Below are positions 5,227 through 46,648 of a DNA stretch of 64,000 nt, piece after piece. Origin of the DNA: Candidatus Saccharimonadota bacterium (GTDB lineage: Bacteria > Patescibacteriota > Saccharimonadia > Saccharimonadales > Saccharimonadaceae); the NCBI GenBank assembly GCA_017406405.1, contig JAFQYO010000014.1, positions 1-64,000 on the forward strand. Reading direction: 5' to 3'. The notes under the pieces were generated by a model. It had not been told where the DNA came from. It saw only the letters and a program-made list of their open reading frames with translations, and did not search any database. The first letter of the stretch is position 1. The number at the start of each line of letters is the position of its first letter. The translations under genes were made by a program, and so were the position numbers.

Positions 5227-6177
5227 ATGGAAGAAAAATATCATAAACGAAGAAAAATCCTCATTCTCGACCCTGTCGAGTCGCCCAGAAATGTTCTCGA
5301 GCGAGAAAAAAGAAGAACCCGCGTCGCCGCTTATGCTCGCGTTTCGACCGAACTCGATTCCCAGTCAAACAGTTATAGCGCGCAGACTTCTTATTATCTA
5401 AACTATATTTCGAACAACCCGGATTGGGAACTAGTCGAGATTTATTCCGACTCCGGTTTAACCGGAACAAATGTCAAAAAACGCAGCGGTTTCAGCCGCA
5501 TGATTGACGATGCTATGAACGGAAAAATCGATTTGATTTTAACAAAATCAATTTCTCGTTTTGCTCGCAACACTGTTGACGCTTTGACAGTGACACGCGA
5601 GCTAAAAACAAAGGGAATCGAAGTCTTTTTTGAGAAAGAAAATATCAGTTCTCTCGATTCGACCGCAGAACTAATTTTTACGATTATGTCTTCTATCGCT
5701 CAAGAAGAAAGTCGTTCAATTTCCGAGAACGTTCGTTGGGGAATTCAGCGCCGTATGGAGGCCGGAAAAATAGTCCTCCCTTATAAAAGTTTTTTAGGTT
5801 TCGATCGCGGCGAAGACGGTCTCCCGAAGATAAACGAAAGCGAAGCAAAGATTGTCCGCCGGATTTATGATGATTTTCTTTCCGGCGACACCTTTCGCGG
5901 TATTGCACGAAAACTCACCGAAGAAAAAATTCCTTCTCCGCGTCTAAAATCCAAATGGTCGCCAGAAACTATTCGCAGTATCCTCACAAACGAAAAATAC
6001 AAAGGCGATGCTCGTCTCGGAAAGACCTATACTGTCGATTTCCTCACTCATGAGGTCAGAAAGAACCACGGCGAGAGGAAACAATGGTATATAAGAGATT
6101 CTCACGACGCAATAGTCACGCCCCGGACTTTCTCAAAAGTCCAAACCGAAATTGCTCGTCGTCGCTCAGAAAAATAA
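5227..6177 (+). CDS. Serine recombinase, short form lacking the C-terminal coiled-coil and zinc ribbon
   Basis: Site-specific DNA recombinase of the resolvase/invertase family. The catalytic domain begins at about residue 32 with VAAYARVST (nucleophile Ser40), followed by DSGLTGT, ISRFARN and AQEESRSIS. The recombinase DNA-binding domain follows (about 185-290: GIARKLTEEKIPSP, WSPETIRSIL, YKGDA). At 316 residues it stops where large serine integrases (450-550) usually continue into a zinc ribbon and coiled coil, so it is either naturally short or C-terminally degraded. No partner integrase or clear att site is seen. The initiator ATG is placed by the promoter 6 bases upstream. Confidence 0.9.
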   Translation: MEEKYHKRRKILILDPVESPRNVLEREKRRTRVAAYARVSTELDSQSNSYSAQTSYYLNYISNNPDWELVEIYSDSGLTGTNVKKRSGFSRMIDDAMNGKIDLILTKSISRFARNTVDALTVTRELKTKGIEVFFEKENISSLDSTAELIFTIMSSIAQEESRSISENVRWGIQRRMEAGKIVLPYKSFLGFDRGEDGLPKINESEAKIVRRIYDDFLSGDTFRGIARKLTEEKIPSPRLKSKWSPETIRSILTNEKYKGDARLGKTYTVDFLTHEVRKNHGERKQWYIRDSHDAIVTPRTFSKVQTEIARRRSEK

Positions 6178-6320
6178 AAGAGTTCCCCGGGCGCCCAGGG
6201 AACTTCATCGGCGGTATCTTGGAAGTGTAGCCGATGTCGGGAAGAACTTGTATCAAACTCACAGTGATGTCTAAGATGTAGGTCAATACAAACTTAACAT
6301 GTTAATAATTGACCTTTGTA
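6174..6320 (-). ncRNA. Candidate structured small RNA, minus strand
   Basis: The 315-base gap 6178-6492 has no gene on the plus strand. On the minus strand it holds a near-consensus promoter (TTGACA-16-TATAAT) and, about 140 bases downstream, a GC-rich hairpin followed by CTTTTATTTT, a textbook intrinsic terminator. Between them no open reading frame of useful size exists. The RNA would form a GGTCAAT/ATTGACC hairpin at its 5' end, a CATCGGC/GCCGATG hairpin near the 3' end and then the terminator stem. It does not match the SRP, 6S, tmRNA or RNase P hallmarks I can recall. The rest of the gap (6361-6492) is the leader and promoter of the next gene. Confidence 0.6.
6181..6204 (-). terminator. 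Intrinsic terminator of the small-RNA candidate
   Basis: AGTTCCC pairs with GGGAACT and GG with CC around a short loop. On the minus strand the stem is followed by CTTTTATTTT (6171-6180). It also sits directly after the recombinase stop codon, but no T tract follows on the plus strand. Confidence 0.7.
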
Positions 6321-6326
6321 AATTTT

Positions 6327-6354
6327 ATTATACGCTTAAGTTTTTTATTGTCAA
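6327..6354 (-). promoter_or_regulatory. Strong sigma-70-type promoter of the small-RNA candidate
   Basis: Minus strand TTGACA (6349-6354), 16-base spacer, TATAAT (6327-6332); both hexamers are perfect. Confidence 0.7.
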
Positions 6355-6430
6355 TACCATTTATGCTTAAACAAACCTTTAACAGGGAGAGAGAAATGGA
6401 AAAAAACCTTTGTTTCTTTAATCCGTGTGT

Positions 6431-6486
6431 TATAATAAAATTACAGAAGTTCTAGTGTCAGCCTTAGACAATAAAAAAGGACACTA
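6431..6486 (+). promoter_or_regulatory. Extended -10 promoter and leader hairpin of the secreted-protein gene
   Basis: TATAAT (6431-6436) is preceded by TG-T. The leader contains TAGTGTC (6453-6459) and its exact complement GACACTA (6480-6486). The downstream arm overlaps the end of the AAAAAAGG ribosome binding site, so folding would partly mask it. Confidence 0.5.
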
Positions 6487-6492
6487 AAAACT

Positions 6493-7410
6493 ATGTCTAA
6501 AAAACTTATTGCTAGTGCCGGCGTCGTCGCCTCTCTAGCGGTCGCTCTCGCCCCGTTGGCAACCTTCGCGACAAACTCCTACTATCCTAATACTCATCAG
6601 GATAGATTGAGCGTTACGATTGAAGAGGTTTGTTCCTTCGGTCACACTTACGCTAATGGCGATGTCGTCCATCCCGGCTCTCATACCGACGGTACTGGCT
6701 TAGGTAGCCCGGCAGAAACCGGAACAGAAGCCAACACTCCAACTACTGGCATCAACGCCGGCAAAAGTTATGGTCATTGGATGACTGATGGTGTTGACGG
6801 AAACGACGACGGGGACTACGAAGATGATGGTGATACTGCCCCTGCAGCGCTTTCTGTCGCTACTGCCTACGACACGCAGGATACAACTTCTAATCCTAAT
6901 GTTCCGTCTGTTGCTCCTACTAACACAACAGTCCTAACGGACACCGCCTATGGCGTTATGGAGACCAACACGGTCAACAATACATTCGCAAAAACCACGC
7001 TCGCCATCATCTGTAACACTTCTAATGGCTACAAAATCATAGCTGAGCCTGACGCAAACCTCGTAAAGACTGCTAATACCGACCCAATCCCATTCGTCGG
7101 CAATAATGCTATGACGAGCGCAACAAGCTCCGCCTATAACTTCTATGCTACCGACACTACTACAACTGCCGACACGGACATTACGTCTGTAAATTCCGGT
7201 GTTTCTACTGCTGGTGCAGGCGGTGCAATTGAGGTCGCTAAGAATGCATACGGAACAGCTCTCGCTGATACCGGAATCATCGCAACTCAAAATGGTGCCA
7301 CTTCTACTCTTGGTGACCGTTTGACCATCACCTATGGTGTCGCTGTCGACGCTAATCAAGAAGCTGGTACTTACCAAGGCGTAATCACCTATACTCTCGT
7401 TCAACTTTAA
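6493..7410 (+). CDS. Secreted Thr/Ala-rich protein, pilin- or WxL-like beta-sandwich
   Basis: A clear signal peptide (hydrophobic core at about 8-25, cleavage near FAT) precedes a 275-residue exported region rich in Thr, Ala, Asn and Asp, with a long acidic low-complexity stretch (DGNDDGDYEDDGD). The end, EAGTYQGVITYTLVQL, is the closing beta-strand pattern seen in WxL-like and other Gram-positive surface proteins; the WxL motifs themselves are absent. Two Cys (in EEVCSF and IICNTS) could form a disulfide. Two more envelope genes follow, one WxL-interacting-protein-like, which suggests a surface complex. Family assignment is tentative. Confidence 0.6.
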   Translation: MSKKLIASAGVVASLAVALAPLATFATNSYYPNTHQDRLSVTIEEVCSFGHTYANGDVVHPGSHTDGTGLGSPAETGTEANTPTTGINAGKSYGHWMTDGVDGNDDGDYEDDGDTAPAALSVATAYDTQDTTSNPNVPSVAPTNTTVLTDTAYGVMETNTVNNTFAKTTLAIICNTSNGYKIIAEPDANLVKTANTDPIPFVGNNAMTSATSSAYNFYATDTTTTADTDITSVNSGVSTAGAGGAIEVAKNAYGTALADTGIIATQNGATSTLGDRLTITYGVAVDANQEAGTYQGVITYTLVQL

Positions 7411-7430
7411 TTATTAGAGTAGACCTGATA

Positions 7431-7455
7431 GAAATCCCCCGTAAAGGGGGATTTC
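7431..7455 (+). terminator. Hairpin between two envelope genes, weak terminator or attenuator
   Basis: GAAATCCCCC-GTAAA-GGGGGATTTC is a perfect 10-bp stem, but only TTTC and not a long T run follows, so partial read-through into the next gene is likely. Confidence 0.6.
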
Positions 7456-7480
7456 ATATAAGGTTCCAAAGGAGTAAAAA

Positions 7481-8119
7481 GTGGAAGAAAAACTGTACTT
7501 TAAACCCGTTAATCATAACAAAAAGAAGCAAGCAAGGCAAAGGGTGGATAAAAATGCCAACGACAAAAAACGCGTGGCGCCTAAGATTGTCTGCCTTTTG
7601 CTTTTTTTGCTCATCGTTATTGTTATTATTTGGCTACTGCGTGGAAAGACTACTACGCATGGTCATTATCCCGAAAACGTTAAGAATATATCACTCACTT
7701 GCGTTTCTGATACGCTCATTCCACCAAAGCTCAACAGTGCCGTTTCCGACAATAGAGAGATTAAAATAAATGCTGTTTTTCATGGTGCGGATGAACTAAG
7801 AAACATTTCACTTATCTATACATTAAATTGCAGTTCTTCAGACGAAGCGTACGGATACGAGGCTAAGTCTCACGCGGATTTCAACAAAGCATTAAGTGCT
7901 TCGGGATACGAAACAAACAAGTTCAAGAATAAATTCTCTCGTTACGACAACAAACTTATCATCAACCTTTCGGCTAATGGCAATGAAATCGATCAATTTT
8001 CAGCACCATATTTCATGCTAAGTATAAATGATAACGGCGAAATCGCAAAAACATTTGCTGAATTTAAAAATAATTACGAAACTCAAGGCTTCATTTGCGA
8101 ATCGACTACAAACAAATGA
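7481..8119 (+). CDS. Single-pass membrane protein of unknown function
   Basis: Not recognised. The first 32 residues are strongly basic and should be cytoplasmic. One membrane helix (about 35-54, LLLFLLIVIVIIWLL) follows, then about 155 outside residues containing three Cys (ISLTCVSD, LNCSSS, GFICES). The GTG start is chosen because AAAGGAG (7468-7474) lies 6 bases upstream. The region uses more A and T at third positions than the housekeeping genes around it. Its place between a secreted beta-protein and a DUF916-like protein suggests an envelope role. Confidence 0.7.
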   Translation: MEEKLYFKPVNHNKKKQARQRVDKNANDKKRVAPKIVCLLLFLLIVIVIIWLLRGKTTTHGHYPENVKNISLTCVSDTLIPPKLNSAVSDNREIKINAVFHGADELRNISLIYTLNCSSSDEAYGYEAKSHADFNKALSASGYETNKFKNKFSRYDNKLIINLSANGNEIDQFSAPYFMLSINDNGEIAKTFAEFKNNYETQGFICESTTNK

Positions 8120-8145
8120 GACGACAATAGTTTTTAAGGAGGTTC

Positions 8146-9075
8146 ATGAAACATTTTAACTATAAAGTTATTACAACACTTATATTCTCTGCGTTCTTTG
8201 CCTTATTTGGGATTAGGACACTGGCCTATGCGGAAGAAGAAGAAATATCATTTCAAGTTTCACCCATGAATCAACAAATCACGTTAACGCCAGGCGAACG
8301 GTATTACGGCACTTTTAAAGTGACGAGTTCAGTTGCTAATAAATATCCCTTTATCTACAAAACCGATATTCGCCCCTTCACAGTTAATGATAATTACGAC
8401 GTTGTCTACGAAAACAATGGCGATTACAATCAAATAGTTGATTGGATAACCATAGTGAACGGCACTGGCATTATCCAACCTAATAACACAGAAATAATTC
8501 AGTTCTATATAGACGTTCCAGAAAATGCCCCAGCCGGCGGTCAATACGCCATAATAAACGTTTCTTCTGACAATCAGGCGACGGCAGACGAAGGAATAAA
8601 CATTAAAGCCGAATACGCCATTGCGCATGTTATATACGCTGAAGTCGCCGGAGAAACTAAGCGTAGCGGCGACATTACTAAAGTTTCAGTCCCCAGTTTC
8701 TTATTCTCTGGAACTATTTCTGGTACTGCTAGCATAAAAAATACCGGCAATGTCCATTCTGACGCTTCTTACACTCTCCAGGTTTTTCCATTCTTTTCAA
8801 AAGAAGAAGTATTTAGCAACGAAGAAAATCCTAAAACAAATACAATTCTTCCGGAAGCGACAAGAACCACAACCGTAAATTGGCCAGAAACTCCGAAGAT
8901 TGGCATCTTCCACGTTATTTATAGTGTCGAATACGAAGGTGTCGAGTCAAAAGTCGATAAATACGTTATTGTCTGTCCTATCTGGCTTCTTATCGTTCTT
9001 CTAACTTGTCTCTTTGTCGTCATTTTCTCTATCATTTTCGGAAAAAAGAAAGAGAAAAAAGGAAAAAAGAACTAA
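8146..9075 (+). CDS. DUF916/WxL-interacting-protein-like membrane protein
   Basis: A signal peptide ends near AYAEEEE at residue 30. The exported part begins FQVSPMNQQITLTPGERY and continues with TDIRPF and VPENAPAGGQYAIINVS, the pattern of the DUF916 domain of WxL-interacting proteins, which bind WxL surface proteins and peptidoglycan in Gram-positives. A second beta domain (about 170-265) is followed by a membrane helix (about 276-298) and a Lys-rich tail facing the cytoplasm. TAAGGAGG (8135-8142) sets the start. Likely the anchoring partner of the secreted protein two genes upstream; the partnership is inference. Confidence 0.7.
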   Translation: MKHFNYKVITTLIFSAFFALFGIRTLAYAEEEEISFQVSPMNQQITLTPGERYYGTFKVTSSVANKYPFIYKTDIRPFTVNDNYDVVYENNGDYNQIVDWITIVNGTGIIQPNNTEIIQFYIDVPENAPAGGQYAIINVSSDNQATADEGINIKAEYAIAHVIYAEVAGETKRSGDITKVSVPSFLFSGTISGTASIKNTGNVHSDASYTLQVFPFFSKEEVFSNEENPKTNTILPEATRTTTVNWPETPKIGIFHVIYSVEYEGVESKVDKYVIVCPIWLLIVLLTCLFVVIFSIIFGKKKEKKGKKN

Positions 9076-33818: not shown

Positions 33819-33847
33819 ATTATATCAAAAATTCCTAAAATTGTCAA
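33819..33847 (-). promoter_or_regulatory. Promoter of the small membrane-protein gene
   Basis: Minus-strand TTGACA (33842-33847), 17-base spacer, TG-A-TATAAT (33819-33824). NrdR-like box 1 begins 13 bases upstream of this -35. Confidence 0.7.
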
Positions 33848-33860
33848 GTTATATTAAAAA

Positions 33861-33908
33861 ACACTATATATAGCGTATTTTTCTATTGACAAACACTATA
33901 TATAGCGT
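33861..33908 (+). promoter_or_regulatory. Twin NrdR-box-like operators
   Basis: ACACTATATATAGCGT occurs twice without a single difference, at 33861-33876 and 33893-33908. Centres are 32 bp apart (about three helical turns). This fits the NrdR box, a 16-bp near-palindrome of form ACACwATATwTwGTGT that occurs in pairs 31-32 bp apart upstream of ribonucleotide reductase genes. Box 2 fills the spacer of the promoter at 33886-33915, so a bound repressor would block RNA polymerase. Confidence 0.8.
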
Positions 33909-33915
33909 ATATAAT
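33886..33915 (+). promoter_or_regulatory. NrdR-controlled promoter
   Basis: TTGACA (33886-33891), 18-base spacer, TATAAT (33910-33915). A leader of about 45 bases with AAAAAGGAAAAA precedes the start at 33969. Confidence 0.8.
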
Positions 33916-33968
33916 CAAAGCATAACCATTTTATAGAAGTCTAAAACAACTCAAAAAGGAAAAATGTC

Positions 33969-34415
33969 ATGAAATACATTGTTTATTTTCAGCCCTCAGA
34001 TTTAGAAAAATTTGACCTTACTCGTTATAAAAAGTCCCTAAACTCTTATGCAAACATCCCCGATGGCGCGATCGAAACCGCCCTAAAAAATCTCGACCCT
34101 TATGAGATGCCTCATGTCTCCCTTCTCGTCCGCACGGGCGTTTCTCTCATCGAAAAATACGCCGACGAAGCTTCCGCAAAAAAATACTATGACGACCATA
34201 AACAATATTTTGGCGAAAAATTTGAACGCCTCCGCCGAATCACCGGTTATCTCGTCGGTACTCTCGATCGCTGGAATGATGGAAAGAAAGCTGAAGAGCG
34301 CGAACGTGTAAAACACTCTGTGAACTCCTGTGTTGACGACCTCGTTCGCGACGCCCGCCTTCAAGACCAGATGCTTGCCCGAAACGCCGCCTACGCCGGA
34401 AAAATCTCCGAATAG
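33969..34415 (+). CDS. NrdD-like glycyl-radical-motif protein (stand-alone)
   Basis: A 148-residue soluble protein. Residues 89-116 (RRITGYL, RWNDGKKAEE, RVKH) line up with the C-terminal end of anaerobic ribonucleotide reductase NrdD: E. coli has RRVCGYL with radical Gly681, then FNAGKQEE and RVKH. Gly93 would be the radical glycine. The ten-stranded barrel, active-site Cys and zinc-binding Cys of NrdD are all absent; the only Cys is residue 121. The N-terminal 85 residues are not recognised. Control by twin NrdR boxes supports a role in deoxyribonucleotide supply. It might be a separate radical-carrying subunit, a spare part, or a regulator; automatic annotation may simply call it an anaerobic reductase. 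Confidence 0.7.
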   Translation: MKYIVYFQPSDLEKFDLTRYKKSLNSYANIPDGAIETALKNLDPYEMPHVSLLVRTGVSLIEKYADEASAKKYYDDHKQYFGEKFERLRRITGYLVGTLDRWNDGKKAEERERVKHSVNSCVDDLVRDARLQDQMLARNAAYAGKISE

Positions 34416-44249: not shown

Positions 44250-44315
44250 TTGACAAAAAATCAAGCTTGTGCTATAATGTACCTATGTGATGAGCTTCGG
44301 CTCACCTATAGGTAC
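44250..44315 (+). promoter_or_regulatory. Consensus promoter with dyad symmetry at the transcription start
   Basis: TTGACA (44250-44255), 17-base spacer, TG-C-TATAAT (44273-44278). A long imperfect inverted repeat with a TTCG loop, GTACCTAT at 44279 to ATAGGTAC ending at 44315, spans the predicted start site and is followed by ATTTATTTTT. It could act as an operator, or, as RNA, as an attenuator. Confidence 0.6.
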
Positions 44316-44349
44316 ATTTATTTTTCGGATAGATTGAGGAGGAAGAAAG

Positions 44350-44655
44350 ATGTTGGAACTGGCTTACATTAACGAAGACGGAATTATTGTCGATCCCTTA
44401 GGAAAAATCGTCGAGCGCGCTAAAAAGGACGCGCAAGAGATTCTTGAAAAAGGTCATGCAGGAGGTTTTATCTGCGATCGTCGTAAGAATGTTTTGAAAC
44501 AATCATATAACGACGAGACCGGAAAGGAGCTCTATGAGCTGTATTGCGAACTGCTCGATGAACAGGTGACAAACGCGCGGGGCCTGAAGAAAGGCACCTA
44601 CGCCGCCGCTTATTTCTCGTCCTGGGAAGCGAAACCTGAGAAGCTTTTGATTTGA
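44350..44655 (+). CDS. Small protein of unknown function
   Basis: Not recognised. A 101-residue soluble protein with a central helical segment (IVERAKKDAQEILEK) and two Cys (FICDRR, LYCELL). GAGGAGG lies 6-7 bases before ATG. It shares the strong upstream promoter with the next gene, 33 bases downstream. Confidence 0.65.
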   Translation: MLELAYINEDGIIVDPLGKIVERAKKDAQEILEKGHAGGFICDRRKNVLKQSYNDETGKELYELYCELLDEQVTNARGLKKGTYAAAYFSSWEAKPEKLLI

Positions 44656-46604: not shown

Positions 46605-46631
46605 TTAGCACTCAAGCCTTGACAGTGCTAA
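46605..46631 (+). promoter_or_regulatory. CIRCE operator (HrcA site)
   Basis: TTAGCACTC (46605-46613), exactly nine spacer bases, CAGTGCTAA (46623-46631). The consensus is TTAGCACTC-N9-GAGTGCTAA, so one base differs. It overlaps the -35 of clpC, as expected for repression by HrcA with release on heat stress. hrcA is not in the window. Confidence 0.93.
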
Positions 46632-46648
46632 TTTGTCTTTGTTATAAT
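46619..46648 (+). promoter_or_regulatory. clpC promoter
   Basis: TTGACA (46619-46624), 18-base spacer, TG-T-TATAAT (46643-46648), then 6 bases to ATG at 46655. Confidence 0.85.

Follow-up and report, generated by a model that had tools for sequence, protein, structure and literature searches.

We identified, in a 64-kb stretch of DNA from a Candidatus Saccharibacteria genome (hereafter the window; genome G000), a short promoter segment that is, on comparative evidence, almost certainly inverted by a serine recombinase. It lies between the genes of a secreted-protein operon and a small RNA (sRNA) that likely acts as a trans-acting antisense RNA on an unlinked paralogue of the first operon gene. 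The initial annotation of this region had proposed an unannotated structured sRNA on the minus strand. That proposal was right, since the sRNA is a conserved unit without a counterpart in Rfam, yet it is the smaller half of the whole finding: its context had been missed, namely that the sRNA promoter is located on an invertible segment shared with a secreted-protein gene.

The comparison of the switch was based on eight complete loci, including six in the orientation of the window (state A: the window, G022, G163, G031 C1, G031 C2, and G029) and two in the opposite orientation (state B: G060 and G017). Homologues of the sRNA were found in 8 of 174 congeneric genomes, and the switch module was found in only a handful among these 174. 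Relatives with the motif of the first promoter (P1, described below) are represented in the named collection by Candidatus Saccharibacteria bins that come from the intestines of goats and sheep, and the window genome is a member of this ruminant-gut clade of Candidatus Saccharibacteria. A scan of IMG/VR for the P1 motif gave no match.

The invertible promoter segment and the adjacent recombinase

The whole switch occupies window positions 6281-6486 and consists of the divergent promoters P1 and P2 between two 34-bp sites. Locus comparison delimits the left recombination site (GGTCAAT..ATTGACC, 6281-6314), with core TG at 6300-6301, and the right recombination site (GTGTC-N9-CA-N9-GACAC, 6453-6486), with core CA at 6469-6470. 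The invertible segment itself (6300-6470) measures 169 bp from core to core, and 168-181 bp in relatives. In the window, P1 (TTGACA-16-TATAAT, 6327-6354, minus strand) faces the sRNA, and P2, an extended -10 promoter (TGTTATAAT, 6428-6436, plus strand) whose position is kept in relatives, faces the operon starting at 6493 with a gene of the MSKK family. In G060 and G017, the two promoters are exchanged, so that P1 is directed to the MSKK gene and P2 to the sRNA body. When the segments of these state-B loci were aligned with those of state A, the reversed alignments scored 74-146 versus 23-42 for the direct ones, and the flanks kept their orientation.

The right site of the state-A loci has the form GTGTC-N9-XX-N9-GACAC (with the inner arm GTGTT in G031 C1), and the left site has the form ..ACA-XX-N6-ATTGACC, with one or two variant bases in G022, G163, and G017. 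Each site in state A is a palindrome of its own type, and the sites in state B are hybrids. Serine integrases recombine attB with attP to yield attL and attR. In all eight loci, the left and right cores are reverse complements of each other, and the two core types co-vary between the sites: TG/CA in the window, G022, G163, and G017, and TA/TA in both loci of G031, G029, and G060. Dealing the types at random would give this matching with a probability of 1/70, relatedness being ignored. In addition, a precise excision scar is present in G060 (G060:C16:25400-25640, locus L125), where the sRNA half and the gene half are joined at the core, the promoter segment is gone, and the MSKK gene is apparently promoterless. 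Such a loss would be expected where the core is a palindromic TA, which allows deletion as well.

The A and B orientations come from different species, each represented by one assembly, and thus could in principle reflect an interspecies exchange of promoters by ordinary rearrangement rather than by site-specific inversion. We consider such an exchange highly improbable, however, as the breakpoints fall at the identical core dinucleotide in every locus, the cores covary, and a serine recombinase is encoded next to the switch.

This recombinase (5227-6177, plus strand; 316 aa) contains the Resolvase (PF00239, 1.9e-33) and Recombinase (PF07508, 6.5e-25) domains of Pfam and the catalytic serine motif YARVST. 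It is the only PF00239 protein detected in the 698-kb assembly and adjoins the switch; the recombinase gene is likewise adjacent to the switch in G009, G022, and G163. The protein has no zinc ribbon and no coiled coil and ends just after the recombinase domain, as in five of six switch loci (the window, G009, G022, G163, and G017); a zinc ribbon is kept in G060. By its domain content it is a truncated large serine recombinase and the putative inverter of the segment. The coiled coil of serine integrases enforces a one-way reaction, and its loss would therefore fit a two-way invertase. No PF00239 proteins were found in the G031 and G029 assemblies, so the switches there may be locked. The G031 assembly, which is 92% complete, has two intact state-A switch loci (L042 and L043) and no detectable serine recombinase.

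Two further features of the switch loci were observed. The motif TTAACAGGGGTA is conserved between P1 and P2 in all switch loci (window 6379-6391) and is possibly a site for a regulator or an accessory protein. In G017:C27 (L041, 8535-9800), two MSKK genes flank one switch, and the leader of the left one is a 12-bp palindrome of the same type as the right site (TTTTGTGTGTCC..GGACACACAAAA), perhaps marking a further recombination site or a reserve gene.

The operon facing P2 starts with the switch-controlled secreted protein of the MSKK family (6493-7410, plus strand), for which a beta-sandwich is predicted (structure model with pLDDT 59.5; its matches to fimbrial adhesins are weak and non-significant). 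It is followed by a membrane-anchored protein that is conserved in the paralogous operons (7481-8119, plus strand) and by a second secreted protein (8146-9075, plus strand), whose paralogues match the WxL-interacting domain PF06030 weakly, at E values of 0.0021-0.016 that fall short of the Pfam cut-off (0.0021 for the G022 paralogue), and show no WxL match. None of the genes in the 6493-9075 operon resembles a regulator. A DNA search revealed that the first 45-75 bases of the sRNA unit recur in relatives before genes for secreted proteins whose sequence begins with MSKKLIAGAGVVASLAVALAPLATFA, and P1 in relatives also directly drives MSKK genes. Most genomes compared have at least one switchless MSKK operon directly under a P1-like promoter, which we call solo. 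In the window genome, the start of the solo operon lies beyond the window at C12:82081, at a distance of 75 kb from the switch, and the solo leader is located at about G000:C12 82037-82120; a search for a solo paralogue in G009 found none. A second family of secreted proteins (MVK..) has the same P1-like promoter, the leader AAAAGGTCATAAATA, and no switch (L051 in G000:C5, L007, L013, and L014).

The sRNA unit and its fold

In its present orientation (state A), the sRNA is predicted to span 6171-6319 on the minus strand, with ends that follow from its promoter and terminator. The perfect TTGACA (6354) and TATAAT (ending at 6327) separated by 16 bp, as noted in the initial annotation, were borne out: five perfect promoters were observed on both strands of the window versus 0.025 expected under a first-order Markov model, which indicates that such sites are real promoters here. 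The GC-rich hairpin with a T tract that had been taken as the end of the RNA also holds as an intrinsic terminator (6171-6204, minus strand), with a stem of 10 pairs (6 of them G-C, 6204-6181) followed by the U tract CTTTTATTTT; the stem is kept in relatives in a quite different sequence. The resulting length is about 148 nt. The earlier statement that this interval lacks an open frame needs correction, since there is a 56-codon TTG frame (6286-6116, minus strand). This frame crosses the terminator; we rejected it as a small coding ORF, as it is not conserved in relatives.

The RNA from 6320 to 6172 folds with -41.1 kcal/mol (z = -3.65), and none of 200 shuffled sequences folds equally well. 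At least two more internal hairpins had been noted. The outer pairing of GGTCAAT with ATTGACC is in fact the left recombination site, whereas the hairpin CAUCGGC-loop(UUCCAARAUACC)-GCCGAUG (6206-6236, minus strand) covaries across relatives, a comparison that had been suggested as a check. Its CAUCGG/CCGAUG stem is completely paired in 8 of 8 sequences, two of the seven pairs are changed on both sides in a compensatory manner, and the covariation score was reached by 4 of 500 shuffles. The RNA was described as unlike SRP, 6S, RNase P, or tmRNA, and this agrees with strict and lax Rfam scans, in which no match reached the gathering score and those below it were meaningless matches to eukaryotic families or IsrM.

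The sRNA unit, comprising promoter, body, hairpin, and terminator, recurs in relatives. Conservation within the sRNA is highest in the hairpin and its loop. This would be expected of a stand-alone structured RNA, for example a protein-binding one, with the conserved UUCCAAAAUACC loop as its working part and no relation to the switch. However, the hairpin is absent from G163 and G029, where the promoter, sites, and terminator are kept, and the unit was found only beside switch sites or the excision scar, with the exception of one weak match (G031:C2:2569). We thus regard a stand-alone function as improbable.

Three other promoter regions of the window have distinct arrangements. Divergent perfect promoters overlie two operator-like copies of AAACACTATATATAGCGTAT at 33840-33990, before an ORF at about 33965. 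At 44250-44350, a short leader that contains a strong hairpin (GUACCUAU..AUAGGUAC) lies between a perfect promoter and a gene at 44350. A CIRCE-like inverted repeat (TTAGCACTC..GTGCTAA, 46606-46632) covers a perfect promoter that precedes a ClpC-like gene.

Complementarity of the sRNA to the unlinked paralogue and to its own switch

The sRNA had been described as antisense to nothing, which is true in cis; in trans, however, it is complementary to the leader and the start of the solo paralogue. Segment 1 of the sRNA, together with the outer half of the left site (6280-6299, minus strand), has its complement in the 5' leader of the unlinked MSKK gene and matches the solo mRNA of its own genome, as exemplified by GGTCAAACAAAAATTTAACA versus GGTCAAACAAAATTTAACA in G022. 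Segment 2 (CUUAGACAUCA, 6265-6275, minus strand) is complementary to the start codon (AUGUCUAA) of this paralogue and matches the start-codon region of the solo gene in its own genome. We calculated duplex energies for the sRNA body with the solo leaders and found that they favour the own genome (permutation fraction 0.0012), as does the solo start region alone (0.0012), whereas no own-genome preference is seen for the start region of the adjacent switch gene (0.80-0.85); these permutation tests ignore shared ancestry and include seven rows, with two loci from one genome.

From the sRNA segments with AUGUCC, we predicted for G163 and G009 a solo gene that begins with ATGTCC and not with ATGTCT; the solo gene of G163 does so, while its switch gene has ATGTCT. 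Against a background of the start regions of 51 window genes, the solo starts of the window genome and G017 rank first. The start-codon pairing is weak in G031C2 and G060, where 25 and 11 of the 51 background genes, respectively, do better. Compared with the mRNA, the order of segments 1 and 2 is swapped, which precludes a single continuous duplex; in co-folds, the accessibilities do not show the solo start to be cleanly occluded.

The sequence GGTCAAT..AACA is shared between the outer half of the left site and the solo leaders, and these could be homologous DNA. A real switch might then be accompanied by an ‘sRNA’ that is only the run-off transcript of P1 in its off orientation, with a terminator that shields the convergent recombinase gene and a complementarity that stems from the shared ancestry of leaders and sites. 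The fact that off-facing promoters require a terminator, as well as the poor conservation of the sRNA between its elements, would agree with this explanation. On the other hand, in the TG-core species the solo leaders have not kept a TG/CA core at the matching place, which speaks against a match that stems from recombination-site function. The complement of the start codon lies in the opposite order and tracks the C/T variant of the solo gene rather than that of the neighbouring gene, the sRNA hairpin covaries, and two sRNA loci have remained intact in G031 although a PF00239 protein was not detected there. Weighing these observations, we find the run-off explanation rather unlikely and consider it likely, given the genome-specific complementarity, that the sRNA is a trans-acting antisense RNA on the unlinked MSKK paralogue.

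A third segment of the sRNA (6239-6264, minus strand) is complementary to the leader of the P2 transcript, with a permutation fraction of 0.0008 for own-genome pairing. It complements the P2 leader of the same locus in full length (-27.4 kcal/mol in G031C2 and -22 in G163). The differences in this segment are GU-compatible in 17 cases and incompatible in 8, so that the directional GU test, tried as a proof of RNA-level selection, turned out only suggestive.

Inversion changes the 5' ends of both RNAs. In state A, the switch mRNA begins with the P2 leader and has its Shine-Dalgarno sequence inside the GUGUC/GACAC hairpin of the right site, and in 7 of 7 comparisons this sequence is less accessible than it is in state B. 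In state B, the P2 leader is carried by the sRNA itself and is predicted to fold onto segment 3. The predicted binding of the sRNA to the solo mRNA is stronger in state A than in state B in six of seven loci; in the window, the two states bind the solo mRNA equally (-15.2 and -15.7). It is a tentative but reasonable possibility that the inversion, through the swap of the 5' leader, also toggles the sRNA between active and self-sequestered folds and thus makes it an RNA counterpart of Hin/FljA.

The pairing of the sRNA with the switch mRNA itself could also be read as mutual exclusion in the manner of Salmonella Hin/FljA, where in state A the switch operon would be expressed from P2, the sRNA would silence the paralogue, and segment 3 would open the Shine-Dalgarno hairpin. 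The full-length complementarity of segment 3 to the hairpin-forming P2 leader points in this direction, as do the predicted binding of the state-A switch mRNA by the state-A sRNA at -8.8 to -17.3 kcal/mol, compared with -0.6 to -4.2 kcal/mol in state B, and the co-fold of G163, in which the Shine-Dalgarno sequence is freed. In most co-folds, however, the state-A sRNA covers the start codon of the switch gene and the Shine-Dalgarno sequence is not freed, and we did not retain an opening of this sequence by sRNA pairing. Moreover, P2 is without a good -35 element, so the switch gene is probably expressed at a low level in state A. Mutual exclusion therefore appears doubtful to us; the logic would become of the Hin/FljA type if P2 were strong or if the pairing freed the Shine-Dalgarno sequence.

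Proposed mechanism and relation to known systems

We propose, as the probable overall model, that a single flip sets one surface-protein operon in cis and, via the antisense RNA, its paralogue in trans. The recombinase at 5227-6177 would invert the 169-bp segment between sites with matched core dinucleotides. In state A, the strong promoter P1 would produce the leftward sRNA, and P2 the rightward mRNA of the MSKK operon with its Shine-Dalgarno sequence in a hairpin. Segment 1 would pair with the solo 5' leader and segment 2 with the solo ribosome-binding and start region, where UUAGACAU of the sRNA is the predicted pairing partner of AUGUCUAA. The active sRNA would in this way repress the unlinked paralogue and damp the P2 message. 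In state B, the MSKK operon would be transcribed from P1 with an open leader, and the sRNA body from P2; the P2 leader would fold onto segment 3, the sRNA would be weakened, the paralogue would be free, and the switch operon would be on. Transcription, repression, and the direction of the wiring are what we infer from the sequences.

Invertible promoters and serine invertases as such are already known. In the Hin / fljBA-fliC system of Salmonella, the promoter is invertible, and FljA represses a paralogous surface gene in trans (PMC10399903). The likeness lies in a serine recombinase that flips a promoter and in a trans repressor of the switch locus that acts on an unlinked paralogous surface-protein gene. 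In contrast to Hin/FljA, the predicted trans regulator here is an RNA instead of a protein, two promoters swap their outputs, a truncated large serine recombinase takes the place of the small Hin-type invertase, and no Fis-type enhancer was identified. In the invertons of gut Bacteroidales and C. difficile, a short promoter segment bounded by inverted sites similarly precedes surface-protein genes; the present switch differs in its serine-recombinase sites, which are palindromic in the parental form and hybrid in the product form, and in the use of both promoters, with the off-facing one predicted to make a conserved antisense RNA. Like the attP/attB and attL/attR sites of serine integrases, its sites are symmetric in state A and hybrid in state B and have an identical central dinucleotide. 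Unlike those integrases, it serves inversion and not integration, and in five of six loci its protein has nothing beyond the recombinase domain.

Among trans-encoded antisense sRNAs, PapR of uropathogenic E. coli blocks translation initiation (PMC4546395). With sRNAs of this type, the RNA described here has in common its own promoter and terminator and a predicted pairing to the mRNA start of a surface-structure gene. It differs in an orientation-dependent 5' end that would swap its own fold and in a promoter that flips between the sRNA and a homologous gene. Our search of the openly licensed literature found no account of Saccharibacteria or Patescibacteria that vary phase through DNA inversion, and none of an invertible promoter from which a trans-acting antisense RNA to a paralogue is made; a 2025 review of phase variation does not mention sRNA or antisense (PMC11868660).

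If the proposed model is true, the reduced-genome, host-attached Saccharibacteria would have a switch for their surface proteins in which an RNA performs the role that FljA has in Salmonella. The surface variation of these uncultured bacteria would then be directly testable from existing metagenome reads.
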